Virus record (IMG/VR): IMGVR_UViG_3300017764_000155
Coordinates: 1-20,336 of that record
Origin: a virus
DNA: 20,336 nt
Direction: 5' to 3' (one strand)
Part shown: piece by piece, positions 1-20,336 of the stretch
Numbering within the stretch: position 1 is the stretch's first letter
How the letters are laid out: each line of letters starts with the position of its first letter
The notes under the pieces: generated by a model
Database searches by the model: none
Seen by the model: the letters and a program-made list of their open reading frames with translations, nothing else
What the model was told of the DNA's origin: nothing
Made by a program: the position numbers and the translations under genes

Positions 1-333
1 CCTGTTTTATGTACAGACTTTAACACAGCAGTCAATATTGCATCTAATAAGAATGAACAGCCAATTCTTAATGGAGATTCCCTTTTAAGGTCTGGGGAAA
101 CAACAATTCCTGCAAAGATTGTTGTTTCTTATAATAAAGAAAATAAAACTTTTACTATATTTGAATTTTATAATCCAAATTATGTTTGTTTACTTGCTTC
201 TGGAACTAATTTTTTTCCTATTGAAGAAGAGCAAAGAACATTTGAACCTACAGATAATAATACAAGAAATAAAGAAAAAGACATATTTGAAGAGCTGGGT
301 ATAATGCCTCCAAATAAGAAAGACTTTTTATAG
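1..333 (+). CDS. Unknown protein, C-terminal part (5' end outside window)
   Basis: Frame 1 is open from the first base to a TAG at 331-333 and gives 110 residues with no start in the window, so this is the 3' end of a longer gene. The visible part is mixed polar/hydrophobic, with strand-like stretches around residues 38-70 and a charged tail rich in Asn, Lys and Glu that ends in PPNKKDFL. I see no catalytic motif, signal peptide or membrane segment and do not recognise the family. It lies directly upstream of the tmRNA gene on the same strand. Codon use matches the neighbouring AT-rich phage genes. Function unknown. Confidence 0.7.
   Translation, partial: PVLCTDFNTAVNIASNKNEQPILNGDSLLRSGETTIPAKIVVSYNKENKTFTIFEFYNPNYVCLLASGTNFFPIEEEQRTFEPTDNNTRNKEKDIFEELGIMPPNKKDFL
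278..305 (+). promoter_or_regulatory. Weak candidate promoter for the tmRNA gene
   Basis: A perfect TATAAT at 300-305 has AAGACA (4 of 6 matches to TTGACA) 16 bases upstream at 278-283. It lies inside the end of the preceding gene and would start RNA near 312, ahead of the tmRNA acceptor piece. A TTGACA at 344-349 is closer but has no -10 at a suitable distance. Evidence is weak, and the tmRNA could instead be processed from a read-through transcript. Confidence 0.25.
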
Positions 334-349
334 AATTTGCTTGTTGACA

Positions 350-602
350 TGTGAATATATTTTTTAGGACGCCGGTGCAAATCCGGCCACCTCCACCAAG
401 ATTATATAGAAATGTATAATGTTGGGGGGGTGTATTAGGAATCGACTAAAGAAGAAAATAACAAAGAGAGCAAATAGGGTGATGACCAACATCATACTCA
501 TAATTGCAAATAATAGCGATTATACTTCTGCACAGGTTGCAATAGCAGCCTAATGTAGGTTGGGTTTGTGGCAAACCTAGAAACAGAATTGTCACACCAA
601 TT
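350..602 (+). ncRNA. ssrA: Circularly permuted (two-piece) tmRNA gene
   Basis: The acceptor piece comes first. It has a T-stem GCCGG/CCGGC (371-375, 383-387) around a 7-base loop TGCAAAT, an acceptor strand CACCTCC (388-394), A395 and an encoded CCA (396-398). A 27-base spacer follows, then the coding piece beginning GGGGGTG at 426-432. This pairs over 7 bp with 388-394 and includes the G3-U70 wobble that marks alanine acceptors. The D-region GGAATCGAC (438-446) resembles the usual tmRNA GGATTCGAC. CTAAAGAA (446-453) can pair with TTTTTTAG (360-367) as helix P2. The tag reading frame runs from GCA at 506 to TAA at 551-553 and encodes ANNSDYTSAQVAIAA. A hairpin at 562-578 (GGGTTTG/CAAACCT) follows the tag. 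The 3'-part-before-5'-part order is the permuted arrangement known from Alphaproteobacteria. The product would rescue stalled ribosomes together with SmpB. Outer ends are approximate. Confidence 0.93.
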
Positions 603-626
603 TTACTATTATGGAGAAATTGATTT

Positions 627-872
627 ATGCAATTAGAACTGAAAGGTTCGGTGGTTTTTAGACATGAAGCATATCCAGCATGTGAAAAATGTGAAGAAGG
701 TGCCGAGTTGATGCGTGAACGTGGTATCAGATTTGCAACAGTTACTTGTGATAAACAATTGTTTGGAGAGCTTATGTCACAAACAATGTCAATGGATGTT
801 CCACAATTTTTTGTGAAAGGAAAATATGTGGGTGGATTGGATGAATTGAAAACTCACTTAGAAAATTTATAA
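627..872 (+). CDS. Glutaredoxin-like thiol oxidoreductase
   Basis: This 81-residue thioredoxin-fold protein has a redox motif Cys19-Glu-Lys-Cys22 after the first strand, in the context YPACEKC. Near residue 58 there is a Val-Pro step (the cis-Pro loop, DVPQFF), then KGKYVGGLDEL, which corresponds to the glutathione-binding xGGxDDL segment of glutaredoxins. The length is normal for a phage or bacterial glutaredoxin. The CEKC centre differs from the common CPYC, so substrate preference is uncertain. GGAG at 613-616 precedes the ATG. The peroxiredoxin gene starts 11 bases downstream, so the two are probably co-translated, and this protein may recycle that enzyme. It could also reduce a phage ribonucleotide reductase outside the window. 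Confidence 0.85.
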   Translation: MQLELKGSVVFRHEAYPACEKCEEGAELMRERGIRFATVTCDKQLFGELMSQTMSMDVPQFFVKGKYVGGLDELKTHLENL

Positions 873-882
873 ATGGAGAAAA

Positions 883-1386
883 ATGATTGTACCAAATAAT
901 GAATTTAAAGTTAGGATTGGCCCAGATTGGCATGACGTAACAACAGATGATTATTTTAAAGATAAACGTGCTGTAGTAGTTTCATTGCCTGGAGCATTTA
1001 CACCAGTATGTAGTAGTAAACAACTTCCTGCATATGAAAAAATGTATAGTCAGTTTATTAGTCTAGGCTGTACAAATGTATATTGCATTTCAGTTAATGA
1101 TTCTTTTGTAATGAATGCATGGGCAGAAAGTCTTAATATTGAAAATGTAGAAATGATTCCAGATGGAACTGGAATGTTTACCAGAGACATGAATATGCTT
1201 GTTTACAAGCCACGTCAAGGATTTGGTTATCGTTCATGGAGATATGCAATGGTGGTAGACAATAAGAAAGTTGAGAAGATGTTTGTTGAGCCTGGACTCA
1301 ATAATCAAAGTTTAGATGATGACCCTTACATTGAATCTACACCAGACAAAGTTTTGGAATACTTAGAAAGCACTGTTAAAAACTAA
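883..1386 (+). CDS. Peroxiredoxin, Prx5-like AhpC/TSA family
   Basis: This 167-residue protein carries the Prx5 hallmark PGAFTPVCS at residues 36-44, with the peroxidatic cysteine at Cys43. The usual Prx5 features follow: a CISVND strand, a mid-chain NAWAESL helix, an MIPDGTGMFTRDM segment and a YAMVVDNKKVEKMFVEPG strand pair. Such enzymes reduce hydrogen peroxide and organic peroxides in the cytoplasm using glutathione/glutaredoxin or thioredoxin. Some bacteria carry Prx5 fused to glutaredoxin; here the two domains are separate neighbouring genes with glutaredoxin first. The ATG has GGAG at 875-878. It is likely an auxiliary gene that limits oxidative damage during infection. Confidence 0.9.
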   Translation: MIVPNNEFKVRIGPDWHDVTTDDYFKDKRAVVVSLPGAFTPVCSSKQLPAYEKMYSQFISLGCTNVYCISVNDSFVMNAWAESLNIENVEMIPDGTGMFTRDMNMLVYKPRQGFGYRSWRYAMVVDNKKVEKMFVEPGLNNQSLDDDPYIESTPDKVLEYLESTVKN

Positions 1387-1423
1387 GTATTTTTACACAC
1401 ACACAACACAAAGGAAAATTAAA

Positions 1424-1588
1424 ATGTCAAATTCAGAGCAAATTGCTGAAGCAAAATCATATTTTATGAGCGAATATAAAAATGATTGGGAATGGGCCTA
1501 TGGTTCATATCTTGAAAAAAAGTCCTCAGAAAAGAAAAATATTTTTAAAAGTATTTTTTCAATCTTTTTTCAACCCAACAAAGGATAA
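1424..1588 (+). CDS. Small unknown protein, 54 aa
   Basis: The ORF starts at an ATG with AAGGAAAA (1411-1418) at good spacing and ends at TAA 1586-1588, three bases before the next start. The N-terminal half is acidic and Trp/Tyr-rich (KNDWEWAYGSY). The C-terminal half is Lys-rich, followed by IFKSIFSIFF, which could be a short amphipathic or membrane-touching helix. I recognise no family. The good ribosome site and tight packing between the peroxiredoxin gene and the next gene argue that it is real. Confidence 0.6.
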   Translation: MSNSEQIAEAKSYFMSEYKNDWEWAYGSYLEKKSSEKKNIFKSIFSIFFQPNKG

Positions 1589-1591
1589 TGT

Positions 1592-1834
1592 ATGGCAGAA
1601 GTAAATAAAAATCCTTTTGAAATTCGATTGGAGACACTTAAAATGGCAAAAGAAATGTTGGATAAACAATTTGATATTGCTATTGAAACATCAAAGTCTT
1701 CAATGGAAATGTGGAAAGAAGCAGGAAAAAGTCAAGAACAATTTCTTTCTGAATATGTTCCTAAAATGTACCAACCTCAAGAGGTTGTAAAGACCGCAAA
1801 CGAATTTTATCAATTCATAACTGAAAAGAAATAA
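1592..1834 (+). CDS. Conserved T4-like marine phage protein, 80 aa
   Basis: This is an 80-residue, mainly helical, charged protein with no Cys and no membrane segment. The opening NPFEIRLETLKMAKEMLDKQF looks like a small protein I remember as common in T4-like cyanophages, where no function has been assigned; that is recollection, not a search. AAGG at 1581-1584, within the end of the upstream gene, serves as its ribosome site. It is the last gene before an 81-base intergenic region holding a pseudoknot. Confidence 0.7.
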   Translation: MAEVNKNPFEIRLETLKMAKEMLDKQFDIAIETSKSSMEMWKEAGKSQEQFLSEYVPKMYQPQEVVKTANEFYQFITEKK

Positions 1835-1843
1835 TTTGTTTGC

Positions 1844-1888
1844 GTAGCAGTTTGTGAGAGTTCTGCTACATACTAATCAAAAACTCTC
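1844..1888 (+). promoter_or_regulatory. Intergenic H-type RNA pseudoknot (candidate cis-regulatory RNA)
   Basis: Stem 1 pairs GTAGCAG (1844-1850) with CTGCTAC (1863-1869), 7 perfect bp. The loop of that hairpin contains GAGAGTT (1856-1862), which pairs with AACTCTC (1882-1888), another 7 perfect bp. The stems abut with no base between them; the connecting loops are 5 and 12 bases. This is an ideal H-type pseudoknot. It sits between the 80-aa gene and the phosphoribosyltransferase-like gene at 1916, which has no visible Shine-Dalgarno. No T-tract follows, so a simple intrinsic terminator is unlikely. A metabolite-sensing element, a translational operator or a 3'-end stabiliser are all possible. 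It does not match a riboswitch consensus I can recall. Confidence 0.6.
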
Positions 1889-1915
1889 CCCCCTCACTAA
1901 TAACTATATTTTAAA

Positions 1916-2296
1916 ATGGATTTATTTCAAAATGTTGACTTTATAAGTCACTCTGGTTTACATCTTACATGGAAAATAGAATGTGATGCAATCAGTGAAG
2001 AAGAATGGAAAACTTTTGCAAAAATTGTTAGAGAATATGAGTCTAGACCTTGGAGCGAAGTTTTAGGAATTCCAAGAGGAGGAGTAAAATTTGCAAATGC
2101 ATTAAATGAATATAGCACACATAATACAAATCATCCATTGTTAATTGCTGATGATGTTTATACTACTGGAAGAAGTTTTAGAGATTTTTCTAAAAATATT
2201 ACAGATAAGGAATTAATAAAATGGTGTGTTTTTGCAAGAAATCCAATAAAAGAATTAGATGTAAAAGCTTTGTTCACATTAACAGCAGGAAATTAA
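1916..2296 (+). CDS. Phosphoribosyltransferase-like protein (type I PRTase fold)
   Basis: In this 126-residue protein the segment LLIADDVYTTGRSF (about residues 75-88) fits the PRPP-binding motif of type I phosphoribosyltransferases: hydrophobic strand, two acids, then TTG. An earlier VLGIPRGGVKFA (49-60) matches the first PRTase strand and pyrophosphate-binding loop. It is shorter than typical cellular PRTases (170-220 residues) and lacks an obvious hood domain, so the accepted base cannot be named. With thyX, purC, a DHODH-like gene and purB in the same window, a role in nucleotide salvage or synthesis is a reasonable inference. No Shine-Dalgarno is visible before the ATG, and the upstream pseudoknot may govern it. 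Confidence 0.75.
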   Translation: MDLFQNVDFISHSGLHLTWKIECDAISEEEWKTFAKIVREYESRPWSEVLGIPRGGVKFANALNEYSTHNTNHPLLIADDVYTTGRSFRDFSKNITDKELIKWCVFARNPIKELDVKALFTLTAGN

Positions 2297-2299
2297 AAA

Positions 2300-2533
2300 A
2301 TGATGTTTGAAGAGTTACAAGTTATGAGCTCAAAAAAGTTTTCATATGAAATTGAAGAGTTTGTTAAAAAAACTGGTGTATCTTATCTTGATGCAGTTTT
2401 GGAATATTGCACCGAAAATAAAATAGAACCAGAAACAGTTGCAACACTTATTTCCAAGCCACTAAAAGAAAAGATTGAAGTAGATGCAATGAAACTAAAT
2501 CTAATTCCTAAAGTTTCTCAGCTTCCAATATAA
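2300..2533 (+). CDS. 33: Late-transcription coactivator, gp33-like
   Basis: A 77-residue helical protein with the pattern FSYEIEEFVKKTGVSYLDAVLEYC, then IEPETVATLI, LKEKIEVDAMKLN and a terminal QLPI. I associate this with the small protein annotated as T4-like late promoter transcription accessory protein (gp33) in marine phages. gp33 bridges the sigma-like gp55, the sliding clamp and RNA polymerase at late promoters. Immediately downstream is gp59, and gp32 lies close by; T4 also clusters 32, 59 and 33, which supports the call. T4-type late promoter motifs occur in this window. The start is ATG 2300; ATG 2303 is an alternative. Confidence 0.65.
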   Translation: MMFEELQVMSSKKFSYEIEEFVKKTGVSYLDAVLEYCTENKIEPETVATLISKPLKEKIEVDAMKLNLIPKVSQLPI

Positions 2534-3170: not shown

Positions 3171-3389
3171 ATGACACTTAAGCAGCAAGAAGAATTAGTT
3201 CGTGAACGTGATTTTCTAAAATCAAAAGTACAAGAATTAACTAATAGAGTTAAAACATTGGAATATGATTGTGCTGAATTGCAACGTAGAGAATCAGAAT
3301 TGAGTATTAGATTGAAAGAGGTTTCTAATTATCGCCCACCTCGCTACAATCCTAATTTTGTTAAAAAACCAGCATATAATAGAAGATGA
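3171..3389 (+). CDS. Coiled-coil protein, 72 aa, unknown
   Basis: The first 50 residues are an almost unbroken heptad-patterned helix (QQEELVRERDFLKSKVQEL, then NRVKTLEYDCAELQRR), predicted as a coiled coil. The last 20 residues are a basic, Pro/Tyr/Asn-rich tail (YRPPRYNPNFVKKPAYNRR). It starts 10 bases after gp59, and its TGA overlaps the thyX ATG (ATGA), so translation is coupled to thyX. The basic tail suggests nucleic-acid or gp32 binding, but this is inference. Family not recognised. Confidence 0.65.
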   Translation: MTLKQQEELVRERDFLKSKVQELTNRVKTLEYDCAELQRRESELSIRLKEVSNYRPPRYNPNFVKKPAYNRR

Positions 3390-4087
3390 GTAAAGTTAAA
3401 CTAATTTCTTATTCTGTTCCAACAGAAGAATATTCAAATCAAGGGTTAGAAGATGTCCAAGATCTCATTGCGTATTGTGCCCGTGTATCGAACCCAGCGA
3501 ACCAATACAACACTGAAACGTCCGAAAGGCTCATACGCTACCTTATCAAGCACTCCCACTGGAGCCCACTTGAGATGGCTAGTGCTTGCATAGAAATTGA
3601 AACTACCAGAGATATTGCTCATCAGATTGTGAGGCATAGAAGTTTTAGTTTTCAAGAGTTTAGTCAAAGATATGCAAATCCTCAAGATCAAGAAAATACA
3701 TTTGATGTAAGAGAATGTAGATTTCAAGACCCAAAGAATAGACAGAATTCTATTCCTTATCCAGATAAAAAAGACTATTGGGAAGTTGATGTTATTCATA
3801 AACAATGGATTGAAAAACAAAGAGAGGTAATCTATAAAACAAAAGAAGTTTATGACTGGGCAATTGATGTAGGAATTGCAAAAGAACAAGCTCGTGCTGT
3901 TCTTCCAGAAGGATTGACCAAATCAACATTAATGATGAATGGAACTATACGTTCATGGGTTCATTATATTGATTTACGGTCTGCAAACGGCACTCAGAAG
4001 GAGCATGCCGAGATTGCAAAAGAATGTGGAGTCTTGATTGCAAATATTTTTCCATTAATTTTGAATTTGCAAGAAAAAAAGACTTGA
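3386..4087 (+). CDS. thyX: Flavin-dependent thymidylate synthase
   Basis: The 233-residue protein contains the ThyX signature RHRxxSxxxxSxR exactly, as RHRSFSFQEFSQR (residues 83-95). It also has the conserved N-terminal CARVS segment (31-35), HWSPLE (58-63) and the C-terminal RSW...DLRSANGTQKEHAEIA block that contacts FAD and dUMP. It makes dTMP from dUMP using methylenetetrahydrofolate and reduced FAD, feeding phage DNA synthesis; length is normal. The ATG overlaps the stop of the 72-aa gene. The TGA (4085-4087) is embedded in the -35 box of the gp32 promoter. Two internal patches (about 3461-3580 and 3971-4010) are about half G+C, far above the surrounding gene. Confidence 0.96.
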   Translation: MSKVKLISYSVPTEEYSNQGLEDVQDLIAYCARVSNPANQYNTETSERLIRYLIKHSHWSPLEMASACIEIETTRDIAHQIVRHRSFSFQEFSQRYANPQDQENTFDVRECRFQDPKNRQNSIPYPDKKDYWEVDVIHKQWIEKQREVIYKTKEVYDWAIDVGIAKEQARAVLPEGLTKSTLMMNGTIRSWVHYIDLRSANGTQKEHAEIAKECGVLIANIFPLILNLQEKKT

Positions 4088-5096: not shown

Positions 5097-8000
5097 TTAT
5101 CTCATAAAAGAGAATGCGTCACTGACTCCAGCTGAAAATCTAGATAATAAATCTTGATTTTCAGTTGTACCTGGCAGACTTGTTAGTAATTGCTGAACAT
5201 TTTCATTACTTACTACAGTGCTTCGGTCTATGTAAATAACTTGAGGTTGTAGTCCTGCTAATCCAGAAAATCCTTCCACTGATAGTGTACGCTGACCTAC
5301 TCCACTATTTACGGGCCCCATTCCTCCCATTCCGCCGGGGCTCATTCCAAATCTAGGTTTATTCAGCATATTAGTTCCCATTGCATCCATTATTGTAACA
5401 GGAATTGGTTCTCTTTTTGCTTTTTCTCCTATTTTATTAAGTTGCTCTGCAGCTTGTATATTTTCATTAGTATCATCATTAGAAAAAGGATTGAGTTTAT
5501 TAAATAATTCTCCTGATTTTTCTTTTACTACATCTACTGTATCATTAATTACATCCTTAGTGGCAGTAATTCCATCACCTATAACTTCAAGTGGTTTATT
5601 AAAGAATGCCAATTTATCAGCTATCCATTCTTGTATACCTTCAAAAAACTTTCTTATAGGTTCAAACACATCTATCATGTCTGGAATTTCTGCAAGTATT
5701 TCATCAATTGATGGTAATGGAATAGGTATTGTTTTTAAACTTGCAACAAATTCATCAAATTTACTTGTGGCCGCATTAAATACATCTTTTACTACATTTG
5801 ATGCTAAAGTTACTAAACTAAATGATGCTGTTAAATTATCAACTTCTGATTTTTTATCACTACCAAATCCAAAAAATGTACTAATATAATTCCATGCACT
5901 TGTTAATAAACCAACAATTAAACCTCCAATACCTTTTGTCTTTAACTCACTATCTGCTGTTGCTGTATCTGCTTTACTTGTGTCAAATCCAAATAATCCT
6001 TTTATGTAATTATAAGCACTTTCTACAAGAGTTGCAACTAAATTCCAAGGGAAAAAGAATACATTAATTAATGATGCAGCAGTATCTTCTGTTGATTTAC
6101 CGAAAACAAACAAACTCTTTAAATAATTGAACGCACCTTGCACTAAATTTCTTAATATTCCAGCTACACCATCAACAGGTTTCATAACATCAGCTAATTT
6201 TGTTGTATCAGCAGTAAACTGGAATAAACCTTTAAACCATCCCCATAGCCCTTCTGCTAATCCTTTTATAATTCCAACTACACCATCAACAGGTTTTATA
6301 GCATCTGCTGTGGTTATGATGTTTTCAGTAAATAAAAATAATCCTTTGAACCAAGACCACAATCCATCTGCTAATCCTTTTATTATGTCTACTACTCTAT
6401 CAGTTCCTTCTGGAAGAAAAGATGTTGTAAATTGGAATAAACCTTTAAACCATTTCCATGCACCTTCAACTAACCCCTGCAAAATAGCTAATACATTATC
6501 TGTTCCTGCTGGTAAGAAAGATGATGTAAATAAAAACAGTCCTTTGAACCATTTCCATGCACCTTCAAGTAATCCTTTTAAAATAGCTAATACATTATCA
6601 GTTCCAGCAGGAAGGAAGTTTAGTGTAAATTTAAATAGTCCAGTGAACCATCCCCATACTCCTTTTGCCAAATCAACAAGTAATGTTCCTATTCCACCAG
6701 TTGAAATTTCTCCACCAGCTTTTGTGGTATCATCTGTTTTAAATCCAAATAATCCTTTGAACCATCCCCACACACCTTTTACTAATGCAGTAATTATAGT
6801 AAGAGGTAATGTTATAAGACTTATTATAGACGCAAACCCTTTTTCTACTGTACTAAAATCAAATAGTCCACTAAACCACTTCCATGTTCCTGTTACTAAA
6901 TCTGTCAATAATGTTTTTGTTTTAGTTACAATATCACCAAATGTTACTTCTCCAGTGAATAATCCTTTGATTAAGTCAAAACCTCTTCTGATTAAATCTT
7001 TTACATAGTCCACAAATGCATTTATAGATTGCTCTACAGTAGCACCAAAATCAAATCCAAAATAGTTTGCAACTATGGCTATACCTGCACCTATCATTCT
7101 AAGAGGCATTCCAAATATACCATCAAATAAAGAAACTAGTCCTTCTTTAATTCCATTAGTTATCTTTTCTGCTGGTGTTCCTTCAATACTATAACCATCT
7201 ATGAACCCAGAAACAAAATCAAATATTCCCATTATTATGGAAATAGGTAAAAATATCTTACCAAGAACTGATCCTATAGTTGATGCAAATGTAAATATGG
7301 GCCCAAACAGTTTCATAAAAGAACCAGCAGTTGATGCCATTGTACCAACTGATTTAATTAAACTGAATATAAATCCTACAAATCTAAATACTCCACCGAT
7401 TAATTTAGTTATACCTCCTGTTACAAGTCCAATAGTGAATCCCATTGCTTTTACTAATCCACCAACAATAGTAAATCCACTTTTTATCACTTTAAAGGCT
7501 GCCATCACTAATTTTACACCAATACTAAATGCATCAGTTATAATAGCAACACCAAACATTACTATTGAGCCCATACTTTTAACTAAAGACCCAACAATAC
7601 TAAATATCCCTTTTATTGTTTTAAATGCAGTTGTTATTATTGCAACTGATAAAGAAAATGCATTAGTTATAAGTACAATACCAAATCTTACAATTCCACC
7701 AACAACTTTTAATAAATCACCAACTACAGTGAATATACCTTTTATTATGTCAAAAGATTTTACTACTACTCTAGAAGCAAAAGCAAATGCTTTAACTACT
7801 TTTTGGATTCCTCCACTAACTATGTCTGATATTACAGTAGCTAATGCACCAACTGATCTAAATGCAGCTTTTATAAAATCAAAAACTTTTTTTAATTTAG
7901 TTCCAGGCCCTGCTATATCATCAAAGAATCCTAAACTAGCTGTAACTCTTTTAAAGAAATTAAAAACAGACCTTATTTTATCAAATGTAATACTTGCTAA

Positions 8001-8774
8001 ATCTTTAACAAAATCTAGTTTGGATAAAAGAGATTTAATTGATGCAAATAAAGTTTTAACTCTATCAAAAAACTTTATTTCTGCTATTTCATCTATGAAT
8101 CCAAGACCTATACCCTTTAGAAAAGAAAATAAAGTTTTAAGTTTATCAAATATTTTTATATCTGATAGTGTATCAATAAATCCAAGACCTAAAGTTTTTA
8201 CCCATGCAAAAAAAGTTTTTAATTTTTGAAATGTTTTAAGTTCTGATAGTGTATCAATAAACCCTAACGGTATTCCCTTGAGAAAGGTAAATAAGGATTT
8301 TATTTTACTGAATATTTTTAAATCTTTTAATTCATCAACCCATCCTAATGTTAAACCTTTAAGAAAAGTAAAAAGATTTTTTATAGGTTTAAAAATTCCA
8401 CCTAATTTTTCAATGAGACCAGCAAAGAATTTAACTTCAACAGCTAATTGTTTAAAGAAACTTGCAAGAACAACAAGAGGAGCTAGAAGTAAACCAGCAA
8501 GAAGTCCAAGACCCATTAATGCAGGGTCAGTCAATTTCTTTAGTCCTTCAACTAAAGATTTTGTCATGTTACTTATTCCTGCAGCAATGTCTTGTAAAAG
8601 AGCAGTTCTTTCTTTCTCTCCTCTTTCTTGTGCATTTTGTGCTTCTTTGTCAGCTGCAGTAAACTTTTTGTCAACCATGTTGACTTCTAAAGGTTTATCT
8701 TGACCTTTAATTGTTATCTCAGCTGTTTTATTACTTTCAGAAAACTTTTGCAAAGTTTCATTAAAATTAGCCAT
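5097..8774 (-). CDS. Tape-measure-like tail protein with three repeat families
   Basis: This 1225-residue protein is the last gene of the minus-strand virion block, directly after the gp54, gp26 and frameshift-extension genes; tape measures usually follow their chaperone pair. A hydrophobic segment (residues 84-107) precedes five or six copies of a 27-residue repeat (about 130-283, LFxFLKGxxLGFIDxL). A glycine/hydrophobic helical region follows, with longer repeats around VGGLVKxMG and ITDAFSI (about 340-460). Then come ten copies of a 33-40 residue repeat centred on WxWFKGLFxF (629-970). The C-terminal 250 residues are more ordinary, with a Gly/Met-rich stretch. Length, helical repeats and position indicate the tail-length ruler, filling the role of T4 gp29 (590 residues) without evident sequence similarity. 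AAGGAAA lies 8 bases upstream of the ATG, inside the end of the previous gene. Confidence 0.75.
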   Translation of the reverse strand: MANFNETLQKFSESNKTAEITIKGQDKPLEVNMVDKKFTAADKEAQNAQERGEKERTALLQDIAAGISNMTKSLVEGLKKLTDPALMGLGLLAGLLLAPLVVLASFFKQLAVEVKFFAGLIEKLGGIFKPIKNLFTFLKGLTLGWVDELKDLKIFSKIKSLFTFLKGIPLGFIDTLSELKTFQKLKTFFAWVKTLGLGFIDTLSDIKIFDKLKTLFSFLKGIGLGFIDEIAEIKFFDRVKTLFASIKSLLSKLDFVKDLASITFDKIRSVFNFFKRVTASLGFFDDIAGPGTKLKKVFDFIKAAFRSVGALATVISDIVSGGIQKVVKAFAFASRVVVKSFDIIKGIFTVVGDLLKVVGGIVRFGIVLITNAFSLSVAIITTAFKTIKGIFSIVGSLVKSMGSIVMFGVAIITDAFSIGVKLVMAAFKVIKSGFTIVGGLVKAMGFTIGLVTGGITKLIGGVFRFVGFIFSLIKSVGTMASTAGSFMKLFGPIFTFASTIGSVLGKIFLPISIIMGIFDFVSGFIDGYSIEGTPAEKITNGIKEGLVSLFDGIFGMPLRMIGAGIAIVANYFGFDFGATVEQSINAFVDYVKDLIRRGFDLIKGLFTGEVTFGDIVTKTKTLLTDLVTGTWKWFSGLFDFSTVEKGFASIISLITLPLTIITALVKGVWGWFKGLFGFKTDDTTKAGGEISTGGIGTLLVDLAKGVWGWFTGLFKFTLNFLPAGTDNVLAILKGLLEGAWKWFKGLFLFTSSFLPAGTDNVLAILQGLVEGAWKWFKGLFQFTTSFLPEGTDRVVDIIKGLADGLWSWFKGLFLFTENIITTADAIKPVDGVVGIIKGLAEGLWGWFKGLFQFTADTTKLADVMKPVDGVAGILRNLVQGAFNYLKSLFVFGKSTEDTAASLINVFFFPWNLVATLVESAYNYIKGLFGFDTSKADTATADSELKTKGIGGLIVGLLTSAWNYISTFFGFGSDKKSEVDNLTASFSLVTLASNVVKDVFNAATSKFDEFVASLKTIPIPLPSIDEILAEIPDMIDVFEPIRKFFEGIQEWIADKLAFFNKPLEVIGDGITATKDVINDTVDVVKEKSGELFNKLNPFSNDDTNENIQAAEQLNKIGEKAKREPIPVTIMDAMGTNMLNKPRFGMSPGGMGGMGPVNSGVGQRTLSVEGFSGLAGLQPQVIYIDRSTVVSNENVQQLLTSLPGTTENQDLLSRFSAGVSDAFSFMR
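5865..6890 (-). repeat. Ten tandem coding repeats of WxWFKGLFxF type
   Basis: Within residues 629-970 of the tape-measure-like protein the motif [GS]-[ATVL]-[WFY]-x-[WY]-[FLI]-x-x-[LF]-F-x-F recurs ten times. Examples are GTWKWFSGLFDF, GVWGWFKGLFGF, GAWKWFKGLFLF, GLWSWFKGLFLF, GAFNYLKSLFVF and SAWNYISTFFGF. Spacing is 33 residues for the three best-conserved central copies and 38-40 for the others. The DNA is also repeated, for example around 6445-6600. Confidence 0.85.
7926..8387 (-). repeat. 27-residue coding repeats near the tape-measure N-terminus
   Basis: In residues 130-283, LFTFLKG-like motifs begin at residues 134, 161, 188, 215, 242 and about 270, a regular 27-residue (81-base) period. 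Most copies continue into an LGFIDxLSxIKxF segment. The last copies are degenerate. Confidence 0.8.
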
Positions 8775-17063: not shown

Positions 17064-17275
17064 TGTATCGTGTGACATATGCTAGAGATTCTTTAGATAA
17101 CAATCCAACAGTTAAAGAGTTTGATTTTTATGATGAAGCTAGTGATTGGTTACATGAAGAAGTTTCAAGAAGAATTGCATTTGCTGTTGAACATAGCCCT
17201 TATACCGTTTCTGAAGAAGAATACAATCAAATGGAAGAAGTAGAATATACTTTAGTTAAAATGGAAGAAATATGA
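17063..17275 (+). CDS. Conserved small acidic phage protein, 70 aa
   Basis: The ATG at 17063 is preferred over an upstream GTG (17006) because TGGAGG sits 8 bases before it and MYRVTYARDS is a natural opening. The protein continues FDFYDEASDWLHEEVSRRIAFAVEHSPYTVSEEEYNQMEEVEYTLVKMEEI, a pattern I remember from small proteins of unknown function in T4-like marine phages. It is strongly acidic and compact alpha/beta. The stop overlaps the purC ATG (ATGA), so it is coupled to purC. Confidence 0.72.
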   Translation: MYRVTYARDSLDNNPTVKEFDFYDEASDWLHEEVSRRIAFAVEHSPYTVSEEEYNQMEEVEYTLVKMEEI

Positions 17276-18336
17276 CTCAATTAAAACAAGGAATAAAACT
17301 AGGAACTAATGTTGTTGAAGGTAAAACTAAAAAAGTAACTGATTGTTCTTTAACTATGGATATAGTGCATTCTGGTGAGCCTGAAGGAAAACTTATTTCT
17401 GAAGTAGATGGTTATGTATTGATTGAAACAAAAAATGTTTTAACTGCAAATGATGCAGCAAAAAAGTCTGATGCAAATGTTGCAAAAGAGAAAACAAAAC
17501 AGAATTGTGTAATTATGAAACATTTAGATGCACATCATATACCAGTTGCATTTGTTTCTCAAGTAGATGATACTTCTTTTATTTCAAAAAAATGTGAGAT
17601 GATACCATATGAATGTGTAATTAGAAGAAGAGCAACAGGAAGTTTTTTGAAACGTAATGTGCAGATGATAGAAGGATTTAAATTTGGTGGAGAATTTCAA
17701 GGCCAAAAAGGATTACCAATATATGAATTCTTTTATAAGCCTGCATTTGTTGTCAGTCCAGAAATAGGTCTAGGCTCAAGATTTATGAGTGAAGATGAGG
17801 CGAGAGAAAAATATATGGTAGACGGTAAATGGATAACAGAAGTTTATACAGACCCATATGCTGTATTCAGTTGGGCTGATTGGAGATTAAATGGTGCAGA
17901 CCCAGATAATGCAGAAGGATTTAAATTAAATGTATATAATGCAAAAGTTCCTCCAAATATGCATTCTAAATTAGATTCAATTCCTAGTTTAATTACGCCA
18001 AAAGAATATCAATATGTAATAAAAATAATGGGACAATGTTTTGTGCTACTTGAAGATTGTTGGGAAGATTTTGATGTAGAATTAATTGATATGAAAATTG
18101 AATTTGGAAGAACTGCTGAGGATGGTAAACTAGTAATTGCTGATGTAATTGATAACGATAGTTGGAGAATTTGGCCTCAAGGCGATTCATCTAAACAACT
18201 AGATAAACAATCATTCCGTGATGGAGAAGAACTAAATACTGTTGAAGAAAAATATAGAATTGTTACTGAGTATGTAGAAAAATTTGAAATCAAGAAAAAT
18301 CGTGTTTTTAATATAAATGAAGAATACATACAGTAG
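17272..18336 (+). CDS. purC: SAICAR synthetase (PurC), long form
   Basis: PurC ligates aspartate to CAIR using ATP, step 7 or 8 of purine synthesis. Family motifs are in order: VVEGKTKKV (14-22), NVLTANDAAK (55-64), IPYECVIRRRATGSFLKR (111-128), LIDMKIEFG (271-279), ADVIDNDSWRIWP (290-302) and DKQSFRDG (311-318). At 354 residues it is much longer than the 237-residue E. coli enzyme; the extra length is mainly a 100-residue stretch (about 140-245) carrying YEFFYKPAF, VYTDPYAVFSWADWRLNGADP and PPNMHSKLDSIPS. The key motifs are intact, so activity is likely. It is coupled to the 70-aa gene and followed by the DHODH-like gene and purB, the enzyme acting next on its product. Confidence 0.93.
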   Translation: MTQLKQGIKLGTNVVEGKTKKVTDCSLTMDIVHSGEPEGKLISEVDGYVLIETKNVLTANDAAKKSDANVAKEKTKQNCVIMKHLDAHHIPVAFVSQVDDTSFISKKCEMIPYECVIRRRATGSFLKRNVQMIEGFKFGGEFQGQKGLPIYEFFYKPAFVVSPEIGLGSRFMSEDEAREKYMVDGKWITEVYTDPYAVFSWADWRLNGADPDNAEGFKLNVYNAKVPPNMHSKLDSIPSLITPKEYQYVIKIMGQCFVLLEDCWEDFDVELIDMKIEFGRTAEDGKLVIADVIDNDSWRIWPQGDSSKQLDKQSFRDGEELNTVEEKYRIVTEYVEKFEIKKNRVFNINEEYIQ

Positions 18337-18352
18337 AATAACTTGGAAAAAT

Positions 18353-19081
18353 ATGAGCATTTACATTGCAGCTCCTTTTGGGAATTATTTGTTTACTAGA
18401 AAAACTAGAAGTGTTCTAGGGACATACACTATAGAAAAAAGACCCGGCCTCCTAAAACAATTAATAAAAACTTTACGTTATAAGAATGGTGCATGGTATA
18501 ATTCTTTGGGATTAAGAAATCCAGGCATTGACTTTGGTATTCGTAGATACAATAAAAAAAGAGGAGATTTATTATCAATCGCAGCAATTAAACAGGGTGA
18601 TTGGAAATTATTAAGTGAAAAAATACCAGATGATTTTGATGTTGAATTGAATTTAAGTTGTCCAAATATAGAACATTTTGAAAATTATTATGAAGGTATA
18701 TCTTCTTTTCTTAATGACAAAAGAAAAGTTATTGTAAAACTTTCTCCTTTAACTACCAGTACAATGGTGCAATCATTTATTAGTTTAGGATTTAATAGCT
18801 TCCATTGTTGCAATACTCTTCCATCAAAAGATGGTGGAATGAGTGGTAAAGGTCTTGAAAAATATGTAGACAGGTTAATTAAAATTATAAAACATTTTAA
18901 GGGGGATGCAGAAATTATTGCTGGTGGAGGAATTCAGAGTTTAGAAGATATTGAGAGATATAAAGAATTAGGAGCTAATTCATTTTCTCTTGGTACAGTT
19001 TGTTTTAACATTGGAAATTTTTATAAGATTATACATGCACGAAAGATATATAGACAAGGAAATGGCTCAAATTTGGAGTGA
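18353..19081 (+). CDS. Dihydroorotate dehydrogenase-like FMN protein, short
   Basis: A 242-residue TIM-barrel protein of the DHODH family. It has YNSLGLRNPGIDF (class 1A enzymes have INSMGLPNLGFD), VELNLSCPN with Cys103 at the class 1 catalytic-cysteine position, VIVKLSPLTT, NTLPSKDGGMSGKG, and the FMN-phosphate loop IIAGGGIQS plus SLGT. The true enzyme oxidises dihydroorotate in pyrimidine synthesis. It is 60-70 residues shorter than class 1A PyrD. Against my memory of the lactococcal enzyme, the segment with the conserved flavin/orotate lysine (TKSST) is missing in LGTYTIEKRPG, so activity or substrate may differ. The start is ATG 18353 (GGAAA upstream); an earlier ATG at 18317 overlaps purC. 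Its end overlaps purB by 47 bases. Confidence 0.8.
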   Translation: MSIYIAAPFGNYLFTRKTRSVLGTYTIEKRPGLLKQLIKTLRYKNGAWYNSLGLRNPGIDFGIRRYNKKRGDLLSIAAIKQGDWKLLSEKIPDDFDVELNLSCPNIEHFENYYEGISSFLNDKRKVIVKLSPLTTSTMVQSFISLGFNSFHCCNTLPSKDGGMSGKGLEKYVDRLIKIIKHFKGDAEIIAGGGIQSLEDIERYKELGANSFSLGTVCFNIGNFYKIIHARKIYRQGNGSNLE

Positions 19082-20336
19082 AGAAAACAAATTTGAGAAA
19101 TGGTTTGAAGTAGAATTAAATGTTTGTAAAATACAAAGTGAGTTAGGAAATATACCTTATGATGTTCCTAAAACAATGGAAACATTAAAAGAATCATGTT
19201 TTTTACCAAACTTTGTTGAAAAAATTAACGAAATAGAAAAAACCACAAAACATGATATTATTGCTTTTTTGACACATTTATCTAATGTAATAGGTGAGCC
19301 TGCCAAATACATACACTATGGTATGACTAGTCAAGACTTAATTGACACATCTCAAGCTATTTTAATTAAAGAATCTATTTTTTTAATTAAAAAACGCCTT
19401 TTATCAATCTGTAACAAATTAAAAGAAAAGTCGATTGAGCATAAGTTTACTTATTGTATTGGTAGAACTCATGGAATTCATGCAGAGCCAATGACATTTG
19501 GGTTAAAGATGTTGTCTCATTTTGCAGCATTTCAAAGATGTTTTCAAGCATTAGATATGGATATTGATGAAATAGTTAGAATAAAATGTAGTGGAGCAGT
19601 TGGTAATTTTAGCATGATAAATCCCATTATAGAAGAAAATCTTAGTGCAAAATTAAGAATTCCTACTGAAGATATATCAACTCAAGTTATTCCAAGAGAA
19701 AGACTTGCACTTCTATTTTCACACTTATCAATTATAGCTGGTTGCATTGAAAGATTTGCAATAGAAATTAGACATCTTCAAAGAACAGAAGTTGGTGAAG
19801 TAATAGAATCCTTTACTAAAGGGCAAAAGGGTTCAAGTGCAATGCCACATAAAAAGAATCCTATTTTATCTGAAAATTTAACAGGTCTTGCACGGCTTGT
19901 AAGAATGGCACTAATTCCTGCTATGGAAAATATTGCATTGTGGCATGAAAGAGATATTTCTCATTCAAGTGTGGAGCGTGTAATATTACCAGATACATTT
20001 ACACATTTAAGTTTTGCACTTAAAAGAATGGAAAGCATTTTAGATAATATGGTTGTTGATATTGATAAAATGCAGCATAATCTAGATTTAACAAAGGGCT
20101 CAATTTATTCACAAAAAGTATTATTATATTTAATTAATACTAAGAAATTTAGCCGTGAATATGCATACGAACTTGTACAAAGAATAGTACAACAAGGTGT
20201 ATCTTACTCAAGATGTAATTTATTTTATGGATTAGTAGAAGAAAGTGTTCTCACTGAATCAGAATTAAAAAAGATTATGCGATTAGATGGATTTAATAAT
20301 AACATAGAATACATTTATAAAAAGGTATTAACATGA
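19035..20336 (+). CDS. purB: Adenylosuccinate lyase (PurB)
   Basis: The 433-residue enzyme belongs to the fumarase/aspartase superfamily. It converts SAICAR to AICAR and adenylosuccinate to AMP, releasing fumarate. Start 19035 gives MHERYIDKEMAQIWSEENKFEKWFEVEL, aligning with the usual PurB opening (ERYxxxEMxxIWSEENKF); the further upstream in-frame ATG would add unrelated residues. Conserved blocks are YGMTSQDLIDT (about 95-105), GRTHGIHAEPMTFG (about 142-155) with the catalytic His region, and the signature GSSAMPHKKNP (about 265-275) on the mobile catalytic loop, then WHERDISHSSVER. Length is normal and the gene is complete, ending at the last base of the window. It acts directly after PurC. 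Confidence 0.95.
   Translation: MHERYIDKEMAQIWSEENKFEKWFEVELNVCKIQSELGNIPYDVPKTMETLKESCFLPNFVEKINEIEKTTKHDIIAFLTHLSNVIGEPAKYIHYGMTSQDLIDTSQAILIKESIFLIKKRLLSICNKLKEKSIEHKFTYCIGRTHGIHAEPMTFGLKMLSHFAAFQRCFQALDMDIDEIVRIKCSGAVGNFSMINPIIEENLSAKLRIPTEDISTQVIPRERLALLFSHLSIIAGCIERFAIEIRHLQRTEVGEVIESFTKGQKGSSAMPHKKNPILSENLTGLARLVRMALIPAMENIALWHERDISHSSVERVILPDTFTHLSFALKRMESILDNMVVDIDKMQHNLDLTKGSIYSQKVLLYLINTKKFSREYAYELVQRIVQQGVSYSRCNLFYGLVEESVLTESELKKIMRLDGFNNNIEYIYKKVLT

Follow-up and report, generated by a model that had tools for sequence, protein, structure and literature searches.

A circularly permuted tmRNA gene beside the gp33 gene in T4-like marine phages of the pelagimyophage branch

Identification of the permuted tmRNA gene

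The analyzed window, i.e., the whole 20,336-nt stretch of the virus record IMGVR_UViG_3300017764_000155, carries on its plus strand, between position 335 and approximately 600, a circularly permuted (two-piece) tmRNA gene with all parts present. This is very probably a functional phage ssrA acting in trans-translation with the SmpB protein of the host, and an old, vertically inherited gene of the pelagimyophage branch. tmRNA releases ribosomes that have become stuck and adds a tag to the incomplete protein.

The Rfam model RF04321 (tmRNA_permuted) matched positions 336-553 with 98.4 bits (E 2.1e-18; cut-off 47 bits). The RF01849 (alpha_tmRNA) model matched positions 284-598 with 56.9 bits, over its cut-off of 50 bits, whereas RF01850 (beta) gave 53.6 bits, under its cut-off of 84 bits, which suggests that the RNA is of the alphaproteobacterial type. 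A permuted tmRNA was also called by ARAGORN over positions 306-644, with tRNA-like domains at 360-398 and 426-453 and a tag frame at 506-553 encoding ANNSDYTSAQVAIAA followed by a stop. The proposal of an earlier note on this DNA, that a T4-like phage genome carries a two-piece permuted tmRNA, is thereby borne out. The unconstrained fold of positions 334-604 reached -87.7 kcal/mol (z -6.6; 0 of 200 shuffles were as good) and recovered the acceptor stem (P1), P2, and the T arm.

The record, 20 kb in length, covers part of the genome of a T4-like phage that is nearest to pelagimyophages. T4-type genes of the window include gp33, gp59, thyX, gp32, and those for the baseplate hub, tail tube, gp2, and gp4, and proteins of the gp48 and gp53 types are encoded as well. 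The best match of its gp32 in the phage collection was that of Melnitz (67.7%), followed by those of Mosig, HTVC008M, and cyanophages (mostly ~56-62%). Gene content and gp32 matches together place the genome among T4-like marine phages, on the pelagimyophage side of Kyanoviridae. That the contig is host DNA rather than phage, as its metabolic genes (purC, purB, thyX, and a dihydroorotate dehydrogenase-like gene) might suggest, is exceedingly improbable, since the window is full of T4-type gp33, gp59, gp32, gp2, gp4, tail tube, and baseplate genes, and isolated phages share a similar gene order around the tmRNA.

Structure of the two RNA pieces

The gene starts with the acceptor half (335-398), continues with an intervening sequence (IVS, 399-425), and ends with the coding half (from 426). 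The acceptor piece (335-398, plus strand), recognized from the sequence, Rfam, ARAGORN, and the fold, comprises the 3' strands of P2, the T arm, the 3' strand of the acceptor stem, and an encoded CCA. The fold also paired positions 335-342 with 468-475, which extends P2 across the two pieces, and similarity of the window to its close relatives starts at about 333, the DNA upstream being different. The 5' limit of this piece would thus lie at about 333-336. The coordinates in the earlier note were right apart from this limit, which had been put at 350 and is nearer 335.

The T arm GCCGG-UGCAAAU-CCGGC occupies positions 371-387 (371-375/383-387, plus strand), and is followed at 388-398 (plus strand; sequence and ARAGORN) by the acceptor strand CACCUCC (388-394), A395, and CCA (396-398). 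CACCUCC forms 7 bp with the acceptor 5' strand GGGGGUG (426-432), the third pair being G428-U392. Both the CCA and this equivalent of the G3-U70 pair were present in 61/61 distinct gp33-linked copies, the window included. The IVS (399-425, plus strand), which in the fold of the precursor forms a hairpin that lengthens the acceptor stem, would be removed on maturation, by analogy with known two-piece tmRNAs; its length among the relatives ranges from 16 to 166 nt.

The coding piece (426-600, plus strand), delimited with Rfam and ARAGORN, comprises the 5' tRNA-like half, the tag frame, and a putative 3' pseudoknot; its 3' end is approximate, the RF01849 match stopping at 598. The 5' strand of P2 (446-453, plus strand; ARAGORN and fold) has its partner, 360-367, on the acceptor piece. 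The acceptor stem (7 bp, third pair G-U), the CCA, P2, and the 15-codon tag were all found at the positions described earlier. Alignment with close relatives revealed, 5' of the tag, a hairpin at 480-494 (480-484/490-494, plus strand), in which the pairs 481-493 and 482-492 show double changes (G-C to A-U and A-U to G-C). A putative H-type pseudoknot at 563-595 (563-567/573-577 and 568-572/591-595, plus strand) was read from the sequence and alignment; its pair G571-U592 becomes G-C in the copies L094, L099, and L105, and it does not appear in the nested fold prediction of 334-604.

Tag frame

The tag frame (506-553, plus strand) encodes ANNSDYTSAQVAIAA in 15 codons followed by a stop, with GCA as the resume codon (GCA AAT AAT AGC GAT TAT ACT TCT GCA CAG GTT GCA ATA GCA GCC TAA). 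As the earlier note had read it, the frame ends in -AA and a stop, and it has the hydrophobic tail of the -AA type. All 61 distinct gp33-linked copies have tags ending in AA. Of the 11 tag codons that differ between the window and L094, 9 are synonymous (P 8e-5 in a binomial test, a rough value, as codon changes were treated as single steps), and, judged from these codon changes, the tag frame is under purifying selection. The tag of the window clade, ANNSDY[TS]SAQVA[IL]AA, is unusual, most relatives having ANDNFA-type tags.

Conservation of the tmRNA gene upstream of gp33

The conserved neighbor of the tmRNA gene is the gene for the late-transcription coactivator gp33, located in the window at 2300-2533 (plus strand; phrog_254, E 6.7e-24). 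Between the two lie a glutaredoxin-like gene directly 3' of the tmRNA (627-872, plus strand; PF00462, E 2.6e-6), a peroxiredoxin gene, and two further ORFs.

Two isolates, the Methylophilales phage Melnitz, which infects OM43, and the Pelagibacter phage Mosig, which infects SAR11, have an annotated SsrA gene in the same place as the window, after a PD-(D/E)XK nuclease gene and ahead of gp33. The Melnitz gene (MZ577097, PMC9004378) resembles that of the window in being permuted, of the alpha type, on the same strand, and at the nuclease-gp33 site, but differs in the IVS (142 nt versus 27 nt), in the tag ANDNYVPVDYALAA, and in the glutamine riboswitch that follows it, for which a search of window positions 1-2400 gave no hit. 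The Mosig tmRNA (MT647606) is likewise permuted and upstream of gp33, but has the tag GEDNFALAA and no genes between tmRNA and gp33. We also found an unannotated permuted tmRNA in the same region of HTVC008M, a Pelagibacter phage and isolated pelagimyophage (KC465899.1, 145120-145461, i.e., L090:2121-2462), which overlaps the end of the hypothetical gene AGE60528.1 and which differs from the window in its tag (ANFNEYALAA) and in having UUUGAC for UUCGAC in the D region.

Scanning viral contigs with a sequence pattern yielded 86 further stretches, of which 30 included gp33 in the DNA retrieved, and a gp33-based search kept 80 loci. With ARAGORN and Rfam, a tmRNA was found in 58/58 gp33 loci having at least 1,250 nt upstream, a figure that describes this clade and not all T4-like phages, as the loci were picked by their tmRNA or by near gp33 sequences. 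The 14 loci without a tmRNA all end too near gp33. Both genes lie on the same strand in 85/85 loci, 81 of which have them within ~1.1 kb. Permuted tmRNAs were previously reported in 17/47 related contigs (PMC9004378); different sampling, fragmented contigs, and copies missed by ARAGORN may account for the difference.

No permuted tmRNA was found in the records of cyanophages P-SSM2, S-ShM2, and S-CREM1, in which the nuclease gene overlaps gp33. The simplest reading would be a single insertion between these two genes in the pelagimyophage branch. At the DNA level, the tmRNA had just two weak matches in the phage collection, as expected from its divergence.

Covariation and vertical inheritance

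Among 33 distinct phage copies, 89% of the cells of the named structure were paired and 14/20 pairs had double changes. The covariation score was 0.476, compared with 0.162 for shuffles and at most 0.172 for slid structures. The acceptor stem and the T arm were 100% paired, with 4/5 T-arm pairs covarying and the G-U third pair invariant. In P2 (360-367/446-453), all 8 pairs had double changes, yet some pairs were poorly conserved over the wider set (73% of the cells paired). Distances between tmRNAs correlated with those between the gp33, gp59, and gp32 sequences (Mantel rho 0.47, 0.60, and 0.46, respectively; 0/2000 permutations each). Covariation, selection on the tag, the double changes in the hairpin, and the congruent distances argue for long vertical descent and function.

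The earlier note had suggested that the gene was captured from the host. A recent capture does not agree with the orthologues at the same site in isolated phages, the presence of the tmRNA in all testable gp33 loci, and the congruent distances, which point to an old phage gene. It is very improbable that the gene is a piece of host DNA acquired recently or a pseudogene in decay: although ssrA fragments are known in prophage genomes (PMC9004378) and the window tmRNA is highly divergent from its relatives (0.21 from the nearest copy), its domains are complete, its changes compensatory, its tag constrained, its synteny shared, and its distances congruent with those of other phage genes.

An ultimate host origin is plausible, as Candidatus Pelagibacter ubique has a permuted tmRNA, the gene of which lies beside thyX (PMC2704228). 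The two-piece tmRNAs of Caulobacter and Ca. P. ubique (PMC2704228) share with the window the permuted form, the tRNA-like domain, and the families RF01849/RF04321, but they are encoded by chromosomal bacterial genes. Pattern scans of genome contigs for matching host tmRNAs gave no match, the patterns being possibly too strict (e.g., a single base instead of two separates AGG from TCGAC in many alpha tmRNAs). Assignment of a donor lineage is based on the Rfam subtype scores and on the published tree, in which the Melnitz gene was placed with alphaproteobacterial tmRNAs (PMC9004378). Gene thyX, directly adjacent to the tmRNA gene in P. ubique, is also near it in many of these phages (window 3386-4087; L017 and L051), which may be due to chance or may be a trace of joint capture.

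Presumed function during infection

In the proposed mechanism, tRNA-processing enzymes of the host would cut the precursor after the CCA (position 398) and on the 5' side of G426, and the two resulting RNA pieces would stay joined through the long helix P2 and the acceptor stem. Charging of the tmRNA with alanine at the G-U pair, as with G3-U70, would presumably be done by the AlaRS of the host. Together with host SmpB and EF-Tu, the tmRNA would then enter ribosomes stalled on broken messages, arising, e.g., from degradation of host nucleic acids, and translation would switch to the tag ANNSDYTSAQVAIAA and its stop, so that the ribosome would be freed and the fragment marked for proteolysis. 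The benefit for the phage might be that extra tmRNA returns ribosomes from broken messages to phage translation.

No gene for SmpB turned up in eight records of related phages, of which three are complete genomes of isolates and all have the tmRNA, in a search that was positive in 10/14 control genomes; we infer that host SmpB is used. The need to share the host SmpB would also suit a decoy or interfering tmRNA, which would occupy host SmpB or AlaRS and replace host tagging without adding rescue capacity, so that phage proteins are spared or the choice of degraded proteins is changed. Such a role would agree with a window tag unlike the ANDNFA-type tags of most relatives and with the inhibition of endogenous tmRNA in E. 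coli by a phage tmRNA form without a CDS (DS6A; PMC11915505). We regard it, however, as unlikely, because a mere decoy would not need a constrained tag frame, and here the frame is intact, under purifying selection, and ends in AA in every distinct copy.

Furthermore, in close relatives of the window the GGAC that precedes the T arm is replaced by GCAC or ACAC, which, together with the unusual tag of the window clade, suggests that function could be altered. The divergent tmRNA of this clade, with altered GGAC and D region in the nearest relatives, might have been retuned into a takeover device that assumes host ribosome rescue by means of a tag with a different proteolytic fate, instead of providing spare capacity; this seems to us quite unlikely.

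The earlier note had also envisaged phage control of rescue late in infection. This was not supported: the late-type motif TATAAAT occurs 14 times in the window, with 13.9 occurrences expected, and never upstream of the tmRNA gene. Promoter-like (sigma-70-like) sites near the gene are at chance level (TATAAT, 5 found and 4.3 expected in shuffles), one TATAAT match being located at 300-305.

It should be stressed that the phage permuted tmRNA is already known and explained in kind (PMC9004378). In 2022, the two-piece tmRNA of Melnitz was reported and that of Mosig noted, 53 two-piece tmRNAs (50 marine or aquatic) were counted among phage genomes, and two roles were discussed, namely keeping up the machinery taken over from the host, or marking host proteins so that they are recycled (PMC9004378). 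A list of 79 phage tmRNAs and the RF04321 model were also given (PMC11915505). This work adds the strict synteny, the covariation, the selection on the tag, and the HTVC008M copy. The window gene is a further well-supported example of a marine T4-like branch keeping its own ribosome-rescue RNA, near-constantly, beside the gene for the late-transcription coactivator, which suggests that rescue of ribosomes is persistently needed when marine bacteria with small genomes are infected.

Other tmRNA groups and minor observations

A glutamine riboswitch (RF01739) that begins ~0-10 nt 3' of the alpha_tmRNA match, still upstream of gp33, was observed at L088:4399-4447, L153:4962-5016, L164:5247-5295, and L170:378-432. 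Being downstream of the tmRNA, it is more likely to control the gene that follows than ssrA itself, which differs from how PMC9004378 words it. In Mosig, a manA RNA motif (RF01745) lies between the rubrerythrin gene and a hypothetical gene (L089:2665-2872, minus strand).

A second set of viral contigs (L004, L011, L012, L018, L020, L035, L069, L074, and others) has short alpha-type permuted tmRNAs with a T arm like CCGGGGCGGTACCGG and tags like ANDNFAPSGFALAA. No gp33 is present in the fetched stretches, and several of these genes are 1-2 kb from thyX. ARAGORN misses or mis-tags them, and Rfam finds those tested. A missing tag frame was suspected in L004, L007, L011, L012, and others missed by ARAGORN, but ordinary tags like ANDNFAPSGFALAA were read there. 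Permuted tmRNAs of L003, L005, L008, L009, and others have long tags like ANAFKPEVTVPMSVFADQELVAA, of which ARAGORN sometimes appears to give only the final part (ADAELVAA). The hits at L026, L038, and L066 appear to have arisen by chance within coding DNA rich in GC.

Within the window, positions 17272-20336 hold a row of purine/pyrimidine genes, i.e., those of SAICAR synthetase (purC), a dihydroorotate dehydrogenase-like protein, and an adenylosuccinate lyase-like protein (purB), the last extending to the window end. Among the tail/baseplate genes, positions 5097-8774 (minus strand) encode a 1225-aa protein with repeated WxWFKGLF-type segments and without a Pfam match, which is possibly a tail or tape-measure-like protein.
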